Part shown: piece after piece, positions 53,255-60,247 of the stretch
Position numbering within the stretch: the first letter of the stretch is position 1
Layout: every line of letters starts with the position of its first letter
Source: Catellatospora coxensis
Lineage (GTDB): Bacteria; Actinomycetota; Actinomycetes; Mycobacteriales; Micromonosporaceae
Direction: 5' to 3'
Assembly (NCBI RefSeq): GCF_016862635.1
Contig: NZ_BONI01000051.1
Coordinates: 1-64,000, forward strand
Length of the DNA: 64,000 nt
The notes under the pieces: model-generated
The model's input: only the letters and a program-made list of their open reading frames with translations
Told to the model about the DNA's origin: nothing
The model's database searches: none
Position numbers and translations under genes: made by a program

Positions 53255-54454
53255 ATGAGTGCGTTCGCGGAGTTGTGGGCGCAGCTGGCGCCGGTGGGGC
53301 GGGACGCGGGGAGTGGCGGGTATCTGCGGTACGCGTTCGGGGCGGCGGAGATGGCGCTACGGGGCTGGTTCGTGGAGCAGGCCAAGGCGCGGGATCTGGT
53401 GATCGAGGAGGACGGGAACGGCAACATCTTCGCGTGGTGGGGCGATCCCGCCACGGGGAACGCCGTCCTGACCGGCTCGCATCTGGACTCGGTGCCGCAC
53501 GGCGGGGCGTACGACGGGCCGCTCGGTGTGGTCAGCGCCCTGCTCGCGATCGACGAGCTGCGGGCGCGGGGCGTCACCCCGGCCCGGCCGATCGGCGTCG
53601 CGGTGTTCGCCGAGGAGGAGGGCTCCCGGTTCGGGCTGGCCTGCCTCGGCTCGCGCCTGCTCGCCGGGCTCGTCGACCCGGCCGCCGCGGCGGCGCTGAC
53701 CGACCGCGACGGCGTCACCCTGGACACGGCCATGCGTTCCACGCTGGGCGCGGGCCCGGCCGGGGCGCGCCCCGACCTGCTGGGCCGGATCGGCTGCTAC
53801 ATCGAGCTGCACGTCGAGCAGGGCCGCGCCCTGGTCGACCTGGACCGCCCCGTCGCCGTGGCCAGCGCGATCTGGCCGCACGGCCGCTGGCGGCTGGACT
53901 TCACCGGCGAGGCCAACCACGCCGGCACCACGCTGATGGCCGATCGCCGCGACCCGATGCTGACCTTCGCCGCGACCGTCCTGGCCGCCAACGACGAGGC
54001 CAGAAGGCTCGGCGCGCACGCCACCATCGGCCGCGTCCAGGTCTACCCGAACGCCACCAACGCCATCCCCGGCAAGGTCAGCGCCTGGCTCGACGCCCGC
54101 GCCGACTCCCCCGACACGATGGAACAGGTCGTCGCCGGCGTACACCTGCAGGCCCAGAATCGTGCCCTGGCCGACAGCACCAAGGTCACCCTGACCGCCG
54201 AGTCCGTCTCCCCGGAGACGGAGTTCCACCTCGGCCTGCGCGACCGCCTGGCGAAACTGCTCGACGACGCGCCGGTCCTGCCCACCGGAGCGGGCCACGA
54301 CGCGGGCGTCCTGAGCGCCTTCGTCCCCACCGCCATGCTCTTCGTCCGCAACCCGACCGGCATCTCCCACTCCCCCGCCGAACACGCGCCCGATGCCGAC
54401 TGCGAATCCGGCATCCAGGCCCTCGCCACCGCCCTCCAGGACCTCGCGTGCTGA
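53255..54454 (+). CDS. M20-family amidohydrolase (allantoate/N-carbamoyl type) of the hut operon
   Basis: This 399-residue protein matches the AllC / N-carbamoyl-L-amino-acid hydrolase branch of M20: NAVLTGSHLDSVPHGGAYDG (metal His and Asp), VAVFAEEEGSRFGLACLGSR (metal Glu pair), CYIELHVEQGRAL, DFTGEANHAGTTLMADRRDP and PTGAGHDAGVLSAFVPTAML. In the hut context the likely substrate is N-formyl-L-glutamate, the product of HutF action, because no hutG is present in the operon. That role is inferred. Its stop overlaps the hutF GTG. Confidence 0.88.
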   Translation: MSAFAELWAQLAPVGRDAGSGGYLRYAFGAAEMALRGWFVEQAKARDLVIEEDGNGNIFAWWGDPATGNAVLTGSHLDSVPHGGAYDGPLGVVSALLAIDELRARGVTPARPIGVAVFAEEEGSRFGLACLGSRLLAGLVDPAAAAALTDRDGVTLDTAMRSTLGAGPAGARPDLLGRIGCYIELHVEQGRALVDLDRPVAVASAIWPHGRWRLDFTGEANHAGTTLMADRRDPMLTFAATVLAANDEARRLGAHATIGRVQVYPNATNAIPGKVSAWLDARADSPDTMEQVVAGVHLQAQNRALADSTKVTLTAESVSPETEFHLGLRDRLAKLLDDAPVLPTGAGHDAGVLSAFVPTAMLFVRNPTGISHSPAEHAPDADCESGIQALATALQDLAC

Positions 54455-55842
54455 TCCACTGCCAGTACGCCTGGCTCCCCGACGGCATCTACCCCGACGT
54501 GGTCCTGGAGATCCACGAATCCCGCCTGACCCGCATCACCCGCCCCCAAGATCGCGACGATCTTGCGCGAACTGTTGCCGAGATACCCGATTCGGGCGTG
54601 TCGTCCCCACAGTCCGCGCAAGATCGCCGCCGCGAGGCGGGGACGGGCCGCGGGGGCGGGGTGGTTTATCGGGCTGGGTTGACCATGCCGGGGTTCGCCG
54701 ATGCGCACTCGCACGCGTTTCACCGGGCGTTGCGGGGGCGGACCCACGGGGACCGGGGGTCGTTCTGGACCTGGCGGGAGCAGATGTACCGGGTTGCGGC
54801 GGCGCTGGATCCGGACTCGTACTACCGGCTGGCGCGGGGTGTTTACGGGGAGATGGCGCTGGGCGGCGTCACGTCCGTGGGTGAGTTCCACTACCTGCAT
54901 CACGGGCCGGGTGGGACGCCTTACGCCGACCCGAACGCGATGAGTCACGCGTTGATCTCCGCTGCTCAGGACGCGGGGTTGCGGATCACGTTGCTGGACA
55001 CGCTCTACCTGACCGCGTCCGTGGACGGTAAGCCGCTCGAAGGGCCTCAGTTGCGGTTCGGGGACGGGGATGCGCTGCGGTGGGCGGATCGGGTGGATGC
55101 GCTGCCCGATGCGCCGCACCTGGTGGTCGGGGCGGCGATCCATTCGGTGCGGGCGGTGCCGTTGCCGCAGATGGCGACCGTGGCGGCGTGGGCGGCCGGG
55201 CGGCCGCTGCACGCGCACGTGTCCGAGCAGCGGGCCGAGAACGAGGCGTGCCTGGCCGAGCACGGGCGTACGCCGACGGAGGTGCTGGCGGACTTCGGGG
55301 CGGTGCACGAGACGTTCACGGCGGTGCACGCCACGCATCTGACGCACCGGGACATGGCGCTGCTGTCGGACTCGTACGCCTGCTTCTGCCCGACGACCGA
55401 GCGCGATCTCGGCGACGGCATCGGGCCGGCGCGCGCCCTGGCCGACGCGGGCACCCGGCTGACCTTGGGCAGCGACAGCCACGCGGTCATAGACTTCTTC
55501 GAGGAGTCACGGGCCCTGGAGCTGCACGAACGCCTCGCCACCGAGCAGCGCGGCCACTTCACGGCGGCCGAGCTGCGGGCCGCGGCGACGGCGGCGGGGC
55601 ACACCAGCCTGGGTTGGCCGGATGCCGGGCGCATCGAGGTCGGGGCGCGGGCCGACCTGGTGACCGTGGCCCTGGACAGCCCGCGCACCGCGGGGATCGA
55701 CCCCGAGGGCGTGCTGTTCGCGGCGAGCGCCGCCGACGTCACCCACGTGCTGGCCGACGGCCGGGAGATCGTCCGGGACGGGCGGCACGTCGCCGTCGAC
55801 GTGGCCCGCGAGCTGCAGGAGGCGATCACGTGTCTCTTCTGA
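54448..55842 (+). CDS. hutF: Formimidoylglutamate deiminase with in-frame repeat insertion
   Basis: This 464-residue amidohydrolase has [20 protein letters not shown] (metal HxH), [53 protein letters not shown] and [20 protein letters not shown], the metal and catalytic set of HutF. It deiminates N-formimidoyl-L-glutamate to N-formylglutamate. Residues about 34-61 (with [15 protein letters not shown]) are encoded by a copy of an 85-bp dispersed repeat and replace the usual short strand-to-strand link, so the N-terminal beta domain is longer than normal. GTG 54448 overlaps the upstream stop; the gene overlaps hutI by 13 nt. Confidence 0.92.
54548..54630 (+). repeat. Dispersed palindromic repeat, family 1 copy A (inside hutF)
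   Basis: It starts aagatcgcgacgatcttgcg and ends with cgcgcaagatcgccgc. The ends form an inverted repeat (cgatcttgcg / cgcaagatcg). The core carries gattcgggcgtgtcgt. It is read through in frame as part of hutF. Confidence 0.85.
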
Positions 55843-57047
55843 TCACCAACATCGGCGAGCTGACCACGAACGATCCTGAGCTGGGCCTGCTGCGCGACGC
55901 GGCGATCGTGGTCGGCGAGCGGGTCGAGTGGGTCGGCCCGGCTTCGGCCGCGCCGGCCGCCGACGAGCGCCTCGACGTACGCGGGGCGGCGGTGCTGCCC
56001 GGCTTCGTGGACAGCCACAGCCATCTGGTGTTCGCCGGGGACCGCGCACCGGAGTTCGCGGCCCGGATGGCCGGGGAGCCGTACACCGGGGGCGGTATCC
56101 GCACCACGGTCGCCGCGACCCGTGCCGCCACCGACGACGAGCTGCGCGCCAACGTGGCCCGCCTGGTCGGCGAGGCGCTGCGGCAGGGCACCACCACCAT
56201 CGAGATCAAGAGTGGGTACGGCCTCAGCACGCCCGACGAGGCCCGCTCGGTGCGCATCGCCCGCGAGTTCACCGACGAGGTCACCTTCCTCGGCGCGCAC
56301 GTGAAACCCGCCGACACCCCCGACGGCTACGTGGACCTGGTCACCGGCCCGATGCTGGACGCCTGCGCGCCGTACGCGGGCTGGGTCGACGTCTTCTGCG
56401 AACGCGGCGCGTTCGACGTCGAGGAGTCACGCCGGGTCCTCAAGGCGGGCATCGCCGCCGGGCTGCGCCCCCGCATCCACGCCAACCAGCTCACCATGGG
56501 CGGCGGCGTACAGCTCGCCGTCGAACTCGACTGCGCCAGCGCCGACCACTGCACCCACCTGTCCGAGGCGGACGTCGACGCCCTCGCGAACTCGAACACC
56601 GTCGCGACCCTGCTCCCCGGTGCGGAGTTCTCCACCCGCGCACCCTGGCCCGACGCGCGCCGCCTGCTCGCCGCCGGAGTCACCGTCGCACTCGCCTCGG
56701 ACTGCAACCCCGGCTCCTCGTACACCTCCTCCATGCCCTTCTGCATCGCCCTCGCGGTCCGGGACATGAAGATGACCCCCACCGAGGCCGTCTGGGCCGC
56801 GACGGCAGGCGGCGCCCGCGCCCTGCGCCGCCCCGACCTCGGCCACCTCGCCCCCGGCGCGTCCGCGGACCTGATCGTCCTCGACGCCCCCTCTCACCTG
56901 CACCTGGCCTACCGGCCCGGCGTGCCGTTGATCAGCTCCGTAGCAAGGAAGGGCACCCTCCAATCGCTTTGCGTAGCGGAAGGGCACCTTCTTAACGCCT
57001 CGGGGCCGCACCATCCGGAATCTCCGCACAAGGGAGTGCTCTCATGA
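55830..57047 (+). CDS. hutI: Imidazolonepropionase with repeat-derived C-terminus
   Basis: This 405-residue amidohydrolase has [20 protein letters not shown] (metal HxH), [75 protein letters not shown] and [20 protein letters not shown]. It opens imidazolone propionate to formimidoylglutamate. The normal end would come soon after [14 protein letters not shown]. Here about 35 further residues are read from a dispersed repeat ([20 protein letters not shown]) and the hutH leader. ggagg lies 7 nt before GTG 55830. The stop overlaps the hutH ATG. Confidence 0.93.
56945..56995 (-). repeat. Dispersed repeat, family 2 copy 2 (inside the 3' end of hutI)
   Basis: aaggaagggcacc and aagggcaccttcttaac bracket a loop (caatcgctttgcgtagcg). 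It matches the reverse complement of the hairpin at 48172-48222. It is translated as the tail of HutI. Confidence 0.8.
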
Positions 57048-58579
57048 CCGTCATCGTCGAACCCACCGGCATCGCCCCCGGCGACGTCGCCGCGGTGGCC
57101 CGCGCCGACGCGCAGGTGTCCATCAGCGACGCCGCCATCGCCGCGATGCAGGCCAGCCGCGCCATCGTCGATGACATCGAGCGCGACGGCCGCCCCGTGT
57201 ACGGCGTCTCCACCGGCTTCGGGGCGCTCGCCAACACGTTCATCGCCCCCGAGCGCCGCGCCGAGCTGCAGCACGCGCTGATCCGCTCGCACGCCGCCGG
57301 CGTCGGCGCGCCCATGCCCCGCGAGGTGGTGCGGGCCATGATGCTGCTGCGGGTGCGCTCGCTGGCACTGGGCCACTCCGGCGTACGCCCGCTCGTCGCC
57401 CAGGCGCTCGTCGACCTGCTCAACCACGACATCACCCCGTGGGTGCCCGAGCACGGCTCGCTCGGCGCGTCCGGCGACCTCGCCCCGCTCGCCCACTGCG
57501 CGCTGGTGCTGATGGGCGAAGGCTGGGTGCTCGGCAAGGACGGCGCGCGCGTCGCCGCCGAGGACGCCCTGCACGCCGCCGGGCTCACCGGGATCTCGCT
57601 GTCCTCCAAGGAGGGCCTGGCGCTGATCAACGGCACCGACGGCATGCTCGCCATGCTGCTGCTGGCCTGCGACGACCTGGGCCACCTGTGCACCATCGCC
57701 GACGTGACCGCGGCCCTGTCGATCGAGGCCATGCTCGGCACCGACCGGCCGTTCCACCCGTCGATCCACGAGATCCGCCCGCACCCGGGCCAGGGCGCGA
57801 GCGCCGCCAACATGTACAAGCTGCTCCAGCAGTCCTCGATCATGGACAGCCACCGGGACGACCTGGAGCACGCGGTCCAGGACGCGTACTCGATGCGCTG
57901 CGCCCCGCAGGTCGCCGGCGCGGCCCGGGACACCCTCGACTTCGCCCGCACCGTCGCCGCCCGGGAGCTGGTCAGCCTCGCCGACAACCCGGTCGTGCTG
58001 CCCGACGGCCGGGTCGAGTCGACCGGCAACTTCCACGGCGCGCCGCTCGGCTTCGCCGCCGACTTCCTCGCCATCGCCGCCGCCGAGATCGGCTCGATCA
58101 GCGAGCGCCGCGTCGACCGGCTGCTCGACATGACCCGCTCGCGGGACCTGCCGCCGTTCCTGAGCCCCGACGCGGGCGTCAACTCCGGCCTGATGATCGC
58201 GCAGTACACCGCGGCCGGCATCGTCGCCGAGAACCGGCGGCTCGCCTCACCGGCCAGCGTCGACACCATCCCGACCTCGGGTATGCAGGAGGACCACGTC
58301 AGCATGGGCTGGGCCGCGGCGAAGAAGCTGCGGGTCGTCCTGGACAACCTGACCAGCCTGCTCGCGGTGGAACTGCTGGCAGCGGTACGCGGCCTGCAGC
58401 TGCGCGCCCCGCTGACCCCGTCCCCGGCCGGCCGGGTCGCCATCGAGCAGCTGACCCCGCTCATCGGCACCCCCGGCCCCGACGTCTTCATGGCCCCGAT
58501 CCTGGAACAGGTCCGCGCCGCCGTCTCCGGCCCCGACCTCCTCACCGCCATCAAAGCCGAGGTAGGCCCCCTCGCCTAA
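57044..58579 (+). CDS. hutH: Histidine ammonia-lyase
   Basis: This 511-residue enzyme carries [20 protein letters not shown], whose Ala-Ser-Gly cyclises to the MIO cofactor. Other marks are [75 protein letters not shown] and [19 protein letters not shown]. It removes ammonia from L-histidine to give urocanate, the first step of the pathway. The ATG overlaps the hutI stop. It is the last gene of the operon. Its full length (about 510 residues) and all motifs are normal. Confidence 0.98.
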
Positions 58580-58603
58580 CACCCCACCCCGCCCCACCCC
58601 GCC

Positions 58604-58644
58604 CCGCGCGGCGCGCGCGGCGCGGCGCGGCGCGGCGCGGCGGC
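58604..58644. repeat. GC-only low-complexity tract
   Basis: About 40 bases consist only of G and C in a cgcgg-type tandem pattern. It directly precedes copy B of the family 1 repeat. Confidence 0.7.
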
Positions 58645-58722
58645 GATCTTGCGTGAACTGTGGGTACGACACGCCCGAATCGGGCAAGTCGACCCCCGTT
58701 CGCGCAAGATCGTCGCGATCAT
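58641..58722 (-). repeat. Dispersed palindromic repeat, family 1 copy B
   Basis: In inverted orientation relative to copies A and C: starts ggcgatcttgcgtgaactgt and ends cgcgcaagatcgtcgcgatc. The core cacgcccgaatcgggc is shared. It lies in the gap after hutH. Confidence 0.85.
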
Positions 58723-58737
58723 GGAGCCGGTGGGGGT

Positions 58738-58779
58738 GATGATCGCTGGTTAAGGTCCTGCCCCGAAACAGCGATCATC
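58738..58779. terminator. Hairpin after the hut operon
   Basis: gatgatcgctg and cagcgatcatc are perfect 11-bp complements around a 20-nt loop. It probably ends the hut transcript. Confidence 0.5.
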
Positions 58780-58807
58780 AACCGCGCCAGGATCCACACC
58801 ACGCTGC

Positions 58808-58868
58808 GCCGAGCCATGCCCGCCGAGCGGAGCCGAGCCATGCCCGCGGAGCCGAGCCATGCCGCGCG
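58808..58868. repeat. Short tandem repeat
   Basis: gccgagccatgcccgc recurs at about 24-nt then 19-nt spacing, with a third partial copy. The stretch 58580-58917 holds this, the GC tract, copy B and the hairpin, but no gene. Confidence 0.55.
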
Positions 58869-58917
58869 ATGCCGCGCCGACCCGAGCTGTGGCCCGGAAC
58901 CGCCGGGGCCGTGCTGG

Positions 58918-60132
58918 TCAGGAGATGTGTTCGGGGCGGATGCCGCGGCCGACCAGGCGGGCCGGGAGGGCTTGTAGGGCCGGGAAGCGCTGGAAGAGTT
59001 TCAGCGCGCCGGGGGCCTTGATCGGGGCGTCGGCGCGGAGCACGGCGCCGACCAGGCGGCTCTGGGCGATCCGCTGGGCGCGCTGGGTCACCCGGGTCGG
59101 GAACATGCGGCGCTTGCGGACCAGGTCCAAGTCCTCCGTACGCAACCGGCCGGCTCTGAGTCTCGACCCGAGCAGCCGGGCCGTGGCCACAGCGTCCTGC
59201 ACCGCGAGATTGACCCCGACCCCGCCCACGGGGCTCATCGCATGGGCCGCGTCGCCGATGCACAGCGCGCCGGGCACATGCCACGTCTCCAACCGATTTA
59301 CCTGCACGGTGAGCAGGTGCAGCTGGTCCCACGAACTGATCTCGCCGACCCGGTGCGCCACCATCGGCGCGAGCCCGGCCACCCGCCGGCGGAACCCGTC
59401 CAGCCCTTCGGCCTGCAGCCGCGCGTACCCGCCCTTCGGGATGACGTACCCGCACTGGTAGTAGTCGTGCCGGTCGATCATGATGAGGATCGCGCCCGGC
59501 CCGACCCGCCCGAGCAGCCCTTCCGGATCGCCCGGCTCCCGGGACATCCGGAACCACAGCACGTCCATCGGCGCACCGAAGTCCACCGGCACCAGCCCCA
59601 GCTTCTCCCGGATCACCGAGGAGCGCCCGTCGCAGGCCACCGTCAGCTCCGCGTACACCCGCACCGCGCCTCCGTCCGGACCGACCGCCGCGACACCGGT
59701 CACCCGCCCGTTGGAATCCCGCAGCACGTCCACCGCCTCGGTCGAACGCAGCAACGTGAACCCGGGCAGCTTCGCGGCCTCGGCGGCGAGCAGGTCCAGA
59801 AAGTCCCACTGCGGCAGGATCAGCAGGTAGTTGTGCGGCTTCGGCAACCGGGTGAAGTCGCCGACCCGGTACGTGCCGTCGTCGAACGACACGGCCACCC
59901 CCGGCTCACGCCGCCCCGGCAGCGAGGCGATCGCCTCCCCGAGCCCCAGCTCATCCAGCACGTCCAGCGTGGACGGATGAATCGTGTCGCCCCGGAAGTC
60001 CCGAAAGAAGTCGGCGTGCTTCTCCAACAGCACGACCTCGACCCCTTGCCGAGCCAGCAGAAACGCCAGCATCAACCCCGCCGGCCCACTCCCCACGACA
60101 CAAACCCGCGCCCTCAACTCCCGCTCCGCCAC
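58918..60132 (-). CDS. FAD-dependent aromatic monooxygenase
   Basis: This 404-residue flavoprotein has the dinucleotide fold RVCVVGSGPAGLMLAFLLAR (GxGxxG) at the N-terminus, an acidic LLEKHADFFRDFRGD, the DG motif LTVACDGRSSVIREKLGLVP, and GALCIGDAAHAMSPVGGVGV (GD motif) followed by NLAVQDAVATARLL. It belongs to the p-hydroxybenzoate-hydroxylase-like FAD_binding_3 group. The substrate is unknown. The start is GTG 60132, preceded by gaggag at 6 nt. The longer frame to 60207 reads through the dispersed repeat and is unlikely. Confidence 0.9.
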   Translation of the reverse strand: MAERELRARVCVVGSGPAGLMLAFLLARQGVEVVLLEKHADFFRDFRGDTIHPSTLDVLDELGLGEAIASLPGRREPGVAVSFDDGTYRVGDFTRLPKPHNYLLILPQWDFLDLLAAEAAKLPGFTLLRSTEAVDVLRDSNGRVTGVAAVGPDGGAVRVYAELTVACDGRSSVIREKLGLVPVDFGAPMDVLWFRMSREPGDPEGLLGRVGPGAILIMIDRHDYYQCGYVIPKGGYARLQAEGLDGFRRRVAGLAPMVAHRVGEISSWDQLHLLTVQVNRLETWHVPGALCIGDAAHAMSPVGGVGVNLAVQDAVATARLLGSRLRAGRLRTEDLDLVRKRRMFPTRVTQRAQRIAQSRLVGAVLRADAPIKAPGALKLFQRFPALQALPARLVGRGIRPEHIS

Positions 60133-60143
60133 ACCCCGCTCCT

Positions 60144-60230
60144 CATGATCACGACGATCTTGCACGAACTGTTGGGGATATGCCCGGTTCGAGTGTGTCG
60201 TACCCACACTCCACGCAAGATCGCCGCTTC
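60144..60230 (+). repeat. Dispersed palindromic repeat, family 1 copy C
   Basis: Starts catgatcacgacgatcttgc and ends ccacgcaagatcgccgc, in the orientation of copy A. It fills the gap between rdgB and the monooxygenase, touching the latter's ribosome-binding site. Confidence 0.85.
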
Positions 60231-60247
60231 GAAGGGGGTGGGCGGGG

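Follow-up and report, generated by a model that had tools for sequence, protein, structure and literature searches.

The window analysed here, 64 kb of contig NZ_BONI01000051.1 of Catellatospora coxensis, holds three copies of a palindromic repeat, element A, one of which is translated inside the gene hutF. With moderate confidence, we regard A as a lineage-specific family of non-autonomous interspersed palindromic elements, similar to the repetitive extragenic palindromes (REP) and the Rickettsia palindromic elements (RPE), that would be recognised as duplex DNA, spread by an activity acting in trans, sifted so as to leave copies at gene ends and in permissive loops, and maintained in place. 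The initial annotation had described three copies in the window, two direct and one inverted, and these are real: each has a core of 69 bp, and the three are 82-85% similar, without gaps, over 84-100 bp. The core is bordered by CGATCTTGC on one side and GCAAGATCG on the other, copy 3 reading CGATCTTGCA; the left end is usually extended by about 10 bp, such as AAGATCGCGA or ATGATCACGA, and a right extension, TCGCGATCTT, is found in part of the copies and is often degenerate. Between the inverted repeats the middle is asymmetric, roughly TTGnnnwTwYGYCCGnnnnnnGCGTGTCGtaCCCACAG, so that A has a direction and copy 2 is inverted. With up to three mismatches, the half-site has nine matches in the window, where shuffles gave 1.30 on average (none of 100 shuffles reached nine), and six of the nine are arms of the three copies.

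A is a repeat family specific to Catellatospora. Copies were scored with a covariance model, which in C. coxensis was applied to 150 of 8100 candidates, so that the counts are lower bounds. Its genome (9.35 Mb in 222 contigs) has at least 63 clear copies (≥87 bits) and at least 12 weaker ones (E ≤ 0.01), the latter including at least three with different inner arms but the same middle. The half-site with up to one mismatch gave 57 + 60 matches, compared with 0 + 0 for a reversed-pattern control, and a search for both outer 9-mers with their spacing fixed, allowing up to three mismatches, gave 85 matches compared with six. The complete genome of a congener, G007, carries A at a minimum of 115 places (150 candidates scored). 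Among 61 genomes scanned, 12 have any A match: seven of the 11 Catellatospora genomes, C. coxensis included, are rich in A, with at least 67 scored matches each; the remaining four have nine (G001), one (G008) and none (G005 and G009), and outside the genus matches were obtained in two of 26 other members of the family (20 in G018, one in G034) and in one of 24 other members of the order (one in G037). A laxer scan gave 14 matches in G001, 30 in G018 and one each in G008, G034 and G037. When named genomes were scanned, 90 of the 94 stretches among the matches listed belonged to Catellatospora, the other four being single matches in unrelated bacteria. The short, palindromic and multi-copy character first ascribed to the repeat is borne out by these counts, and the family is genus-restricted and varies by presence and absence. 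Along chromosome C1 of G007, the region at about 4.5-7.5 Mb, a third of the chromosome, holds only 12 of the 115 copies listed. A replication-strand bias in G007 is not claimed: the best split lies 16.5 above expectation, with a shuffled 95% limit of 15.6, and GC skew is too noisy to place the origin.

The open reading frame (ORF) of hutF reads through copy 1, which sits in frame in the N-terminal part of the protein, as had been noted (Table 1); its GTG start overlaps the stop codon of the upstream gene. Comparison of hutF with and without the insert, across 11 orthologues of the genus, shows that the segment is not constant: the loop carries A in seven, a second element, B, in two (G005 and G009) and nothing in two (G001 and G008). 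Because the junctions of A and B lie a few codons apart, their coincidence may reflect a shared permissive loop rather than the replacement of one element by the other. In a tree of the hutF locus two clades are split with full support, the placement of the empty members is not resolved, and a branch separates the A-bearing genes from all others in 49% of 200 bootstrap trees. The alignment of 3mdu to HutF starts only at residue 71, so that the insert is not covered, and an AlphaFold model built from nine sequences had a mean predicted local distance difference test score (pLDDT) of 33 and was not used.

Table 1. Copies of element A in the window and the gene that contains copy 1
Feature	Position	Strand	Core	Remarks
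A copy 1	54548-54636	+	54558-54626	left extension 54548-54557; right extension degenerate; inside hutF, translated
A copy 2	58634-58722	-	58644-58712	strand set by the asymmetric core; between two convergent genes
A copy 3	60145-60233	+	60155-60223	directed against a minus-strand gene
hutF	54448-55842	+		Pfam Amidohydro_1; best PDB match 3mdu (formimidoylglutamate deiminase)

The repeat had been called intrusive into genes, and of this claim occasional in-frame insertion stands; however, it is the exception, since four of the 62 C. coxensis copies were called in-gene, three of them convincingly, and most lie just behind stop codons. The convincing hosts are hutF, a membrane protein without a Pfam hit (presumably a mannosyltransferase) and a carbon-nitrogen hydrolase. 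A-carrying orthologues of these loci are present in several species, and in C. bangladeshensis a DUF5682/VWA protein carries A in frame, in the reverse direction. A thus shares with the RPE, with which their relatives in Wolbachia are grouped, an in-frame presence in unrelated proteins. The four convincing loci all use codon phase 2, which gives the peptide DDLARTV...SSPQ..QDRR or its mirror. Stop codons by themselves cannot account for the shared phase, since in C. coxensis every one of the six is open in 29-46 of 61 copies; such agreement would arise by chance about 1 time in 27, and we give it modest weight; the argument rests on copies from C. coxensis and the named contigs, the in-gene copies of L290-L307 being left out because they were selected by peptide and hence by phase. 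At the membrane-protein site G008 and G009 have a different, non-palindromic linker, which points to a length-variable loop. The presence of B at this site in clade II was considered and rejected on the same linker.

To call gene context, we trained a simple gene finder on the window. Besides the in-gene copies, 30 of the 62 C. coxensis copies of A lie between convergent genes, 26 between codirectional genes and two between divergent genes; for B (73 copies) there are 46 convergent, 24 codirectional, two divergent and one in-gene, the hutF copy of G005 being tallied as codirectional though an ORF spans it, as the start was called behind it. Joined, the two elements give 76 convergent, 50 codirectional, four divergent and five in-gene placements, whereas gaps of at least 60 bp without an element, taken from the window and from loci L190-L289, are convergent in 20 cases, codirectional in 68 and divergent in 76 (convergent versus divergent, Fisher p = 1e-25). 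At 99 sites in other named species, A was convergent in 40, codirectional in 47, divergent in seven and in-gene in five, and three of these five (L073, L140 and L142) were dropped by eye as chance calls whose translation lacks the element peptide. Codirectional copies in C. coxensis lie nearer the upstream stop codon in 22 of 26 cases and are directed against the gene in 22 of 26 (p = 5e-4), as are 36 of 48 in other species. B has no such polarity (13 same, 10 opposite), and its direction is hard to assign. Both A and B show the extragenic gene-end placement of the systems of REP and REP-associated tyrosine transposases (RAYT), REP elements being located at gene ends.

The comparison of orthologous copies favours the view that the half-sites and part of the middle of A are maintained in place. 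When 95 A sites of other species were compared with C. coxensis, 42 were shared in the same orientation, one was flipped, eight matched by one flank and 44 were unmatched; because this comparison demanded the element pattern in both species, it was repeated by flanks alone. In the flank-based set, from named contigs, 43 of 49 orthologous intervals held an exact half-site, and of the six that did not, five held an intact element and one did not. Conservation was measured on 39 orthologous copies, chosen because one arm had an exact half-site, with the other arm left out of the selection. On the unselected arm, columns 2-9 reached 0.95-1.0 and column 17 reached 0.97; in the middle, columns 41, 43 and 45 stood at 0.97-1.0 (0.95-1.0 together with column 49). 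The free columns 11, 21, 29 and 33 stood at 0.56-0.59, and arm columns 13-16 at 0.69-0.79. No base-pair covariation was detected between the arms of A, the pair score being 0.024 both as observed and after shuffling: in 181 distinct copies, columns 11 and 59 vary independently (odds ratio 1.4, p = 0.47) and columns 13 and 57 are A-C in 65. An RNA hairpin as the constraint on A was rejected on this ground. Taken together, the conservation of the half-sites and the lack of arm covariation indicate that the constraint on A is more likely duplex sequence than pairing.

Element B, met at the hutF loop, is unrelated to A in sequence and consists of a 63-bp unit, TTGACGCTGGCCTATCyAGA... followed by its inverted copy. 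Counted on both strands, with 40 candidates scored per genome, B is abundant in G005, G008 and G009 (at least 79, 73 and 80 matches, respectively); elsewhere in the genus there are 13 matches in G010, seven in G001, four in G004, three in G003, one in G006 and none in G000, G002 and G007. The three B-rich genomes have almost no A and the eleventh genome of the genus has few of either, so that A and B are almost mutually exclusive between lineages. In five A-rich or mixed species, B-like elements occur in low copy number, and the one read from each (L185-L189: G004, G006, G003, G001 and G010) has altered arms, ATAGACGYTGGCCTATC.... Sites of A and B coincide in three cases among the 65 A and 73 B sites read (hutF; L054 with L275; L192/L007 with L238), and with three coincidences a wholesale same-place replacement of A by B was rejected as a general rule. 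In the last of these cases, two C. coxensis copies of A about 2.5 kb apart (L007 and L192; G000:C8) map by their flanks to one B site in G009.

Other Micromonosporaceae carry a patchy family of the form CGATCTWGGAGTTRTGG...CCAYAACTCCWAGATCG, about 68-72 bp long, whose CGATCTWGGAGTTRTGG half-site occurs in 30 of 200 genomes, compared with five control matches in total, and at least 10 times on a strand in six genomes (G113, G125, G126, G135, G149 and G150). Of 40 copies read, 23 were convergent, 13 codirectional, three divergent and one at an edge; one place was read twice (L341 = L345), and 13 of the 40 belong to an amplified unit of G135. This unit, in a genome from another genus, is about 170 bp long, is recently amplified, has the ends GGAGCCTGTTGCG / CGCAACAGGCTCC and is centred on a related palindrome. 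The unit (L366-L375, L339) often lies between the halves of an apparent further palindrome, CATGATC...GATCATG, and in the right flank of the L373 element another palindrome, TTTCATGATCCGGAAGACTTG...CAAAGTCTTCCGGATCATGAAA, stands intact and may show in uninterrupted form the target that surrounds other G135 copies. Common descent of A and the CGATCTWGGAGTTRTGG family is plausible, judging from their shared outer GATCT, their length and their TGTCCG-like middle. A broader proposal, which we consider quite unlikely, is that the palindromic sites at gene ends in the Micromonosporaceae form a single functional class, in which whole recognition sequences (A, B and the CGATCTWGGAGTTRTGG family) have been exchanged from lineage to lineage, presumably along with the cognate DNA-binding protein, with same-place replacement even in a coding loop, that of hutF. 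If true, the lineage swapping of gene-end palindromes would amount to a system of recognition-sequence turnover without any known RAYT-type enzyme.

Under our preferred reading of A as a mobile palindromic family, a sequence-specific protein would bind A as double-stranded DNA, and A would have been spread by a mobilisation activity acting in trans and possibly since lost. Insertions in promoters and in most ORFs would have been purged, leaving copies behind stop codons, and a few copies would have landed in protein loops, mostly in the phase that gives a hydrophilic peptide, and would presumably be translated there. The retained copies may still bind their protein, as the conservation of the invariant columns suggests, perhaps with some use at transcript ends.

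Several points weigh against this interpretation. Mobility itself rests on presence and absence at a few sites, and gene conversion, or a function that serves the host alone, could also explain the conservation in place. The orthologue sets were mostly found through the half-site or the element peptide, with only six intervals free of an exact half-site. At hutF, where A, B and empty states occur at one loop, the tree does not separate a loop that never had an insert from one that lost it in the two empty genes. A doubtful fifth in-gene copy (L055), whose start codon is itself in doubt, is in phase 1 and not in phase 2. The arms of B covary weakly (0.087 against 0.075, one of 500 shuffles being as high), mainly at one pair, and hairpin pairing may be possible there. 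Finally, no mobiliser was found, either in a scan for Y1_Tnp or by eye among the neighbours of clustered copies.

A host transcription terminator or transcript-end hairpin, whose RNA would fold behind the stop codon and end transcripts from one or both sides, is an unlikely explanation, although much of the placement would suit it: the 3'-end location, the bias to convergent genes and the polarity against the upstream gene. Predicted folding is strong (mean -36.5 kcal/mol for A and -44.4 for B), and the C-rich stretch behind the stop codons of convergent genes is stronger with an element, with a C-over-G skew of 0.42 (n = 140) compared with 0.15 without one (n = 52). However, A lacks base-pair covariation, G-T and A-C mismatches are about equally common in the arms of B, some copies lie inside ORFs, and A is absent or nearly so in sister species. 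The duplex type of conservation and the fixed spacing would agree with a binding site for a chromosome-organising or topology protein of the host, such as gyrase or a nucleoid protein, without any mobile origin, and so would the placement between convergent genes and the uneven distribution along the G007 chromosome; we hold this improbable, as the clade-specific families, the near absence from some congeners and the in-frame copies look like the spread of an element.

The labels first given to the repeat, a miniature inverted-repeat transposable element (MITE) or a REP element, are not supported in their stricter senses. A classical MITE, mobilised by a DDE transposase and having terminal inverted repeats and a target duplication, appears very unlikely. 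A does have terminal inverted repeats, is short and reaches high copy number, and the G135 unit has inverted-repeat ends of its own around a related palindrome; but no clear target-site duplication of 3-10 bp was found beyond shuffled flanks, at any offset, in 62 A and 71 B copies, and the highest scores for A (17 against 10.8) are matches within the element ends. Nor did the A or B half-site match viral contigs, or copy 1 match plasmids; a parent transposon was not met, no systematic search having been made for one or for a longer relative that shares the ends. A REP/REPIN system that a RAYT (Y1/HUH) protein mobilises would account for palindrome pairs, 3'-end location and lineage-specific families, yet we regard it as extremely improbable. 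Matches to Y1_Tnp (PF01797) occur in seven of 12 genomes and also in five of 14 control genomes, and none was found in two of the seven A-rich genomes (G002 and G006) or in any of the three B-rich ones (G005, G008 and G009). Most of the matches in the genus lie in open frames of 150-157 aa, which by their length we take to be IS200-like, and that of C. coxensis is interrupted by a stop codon. Y1/RAYT genes do not track A or B, and the hairpin covariation is missing from A. The genes beside the few clustered copies of A looked ordinary by eye and no transposase was noticed, no family search having been made on those genes.

In the window, the convergent genes that flank copy 2 end at 58579 (presumably hutH) and at 58918 (a FAD-binding protein, Pfam FAD_binding_3), and a GC-rich simple repeat of the GGCGC type (58606-58641) directly adjoins this copy. 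The longest ORF of the FAD-binding protein (58918-60207, minus strand) has its GTG start inside copy 3 and from there would take part of copy 3 as its N-terminus; the gene finder favours a start at 60072, outside the copy. The end of the copy 3 core is separated by 24 bp from the stop codon of another minus-strand gene, which we take to be rdgB-like. A scan of the window against Rfam at the gathering threshold returned tRNAs only.

We found no description of A or B in Catellatospora or Micromonosporaceae in the literature, subscription papers lying mostly outside the search, and make no claim of priority; six actinobacterial terms looked for in PMC3733652 were not found. Fixed-length sites that hardly vary and lie behind gene ends by the dozen would imply that a family of soil actinobacteria has a DNA-binding or mobilising protein that has yet to be described. 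With A, B and empty states of one hutF loop in 11 species, the arrival, replacement and tolerance of such elements can be asked about directly.

Among known systems, the REP, REPIN and BIME elements that go with RAYT (TnpA-REP) proteins are, like A, extragenic palindromes of high copy number whose families change between lineages (PMC2817692, PMC3686654, PMC3733652); A differs in its fixed 69-bp core, REP units being of 20-40 bp, in arms that do not covary, and in that Y1/RAYT genes do not track A or B. ERIC, Correia and other bacterial MITEs share with A a non-autonomous nature, inverted-repeat ends and occasional in-frame gene fusion, but Correia, ERIC and RUP are tabulated with target duplications (PMC2229807), and none was detected for A or B. 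The CerM-associated intergenic repeats (CIR) of Caulobacter resemble A in being intergenic, in an unsettled mechanism of mobility and in a DNA-recognition motif, whereas they are described as not lying within genes and as carrying a methyltransferase motif (PMC2229807). The RPE, which lie in frame inside unrelated protein genes, are like A short, palindromic, multi-family and lineage-specific; they are 105-150 bp long, compared with the A core of 69 bp (PMC10969869, PMC2229807). They differ from A, which is mostly intergenic at 3' ends with few copies in genes, and belong to a different phylum, the likeness being one of description. The in-frame copies of A would show palindromic DNA turning into protein naturally in free-living bacteria, a process otherwise best known from Rickettsia.

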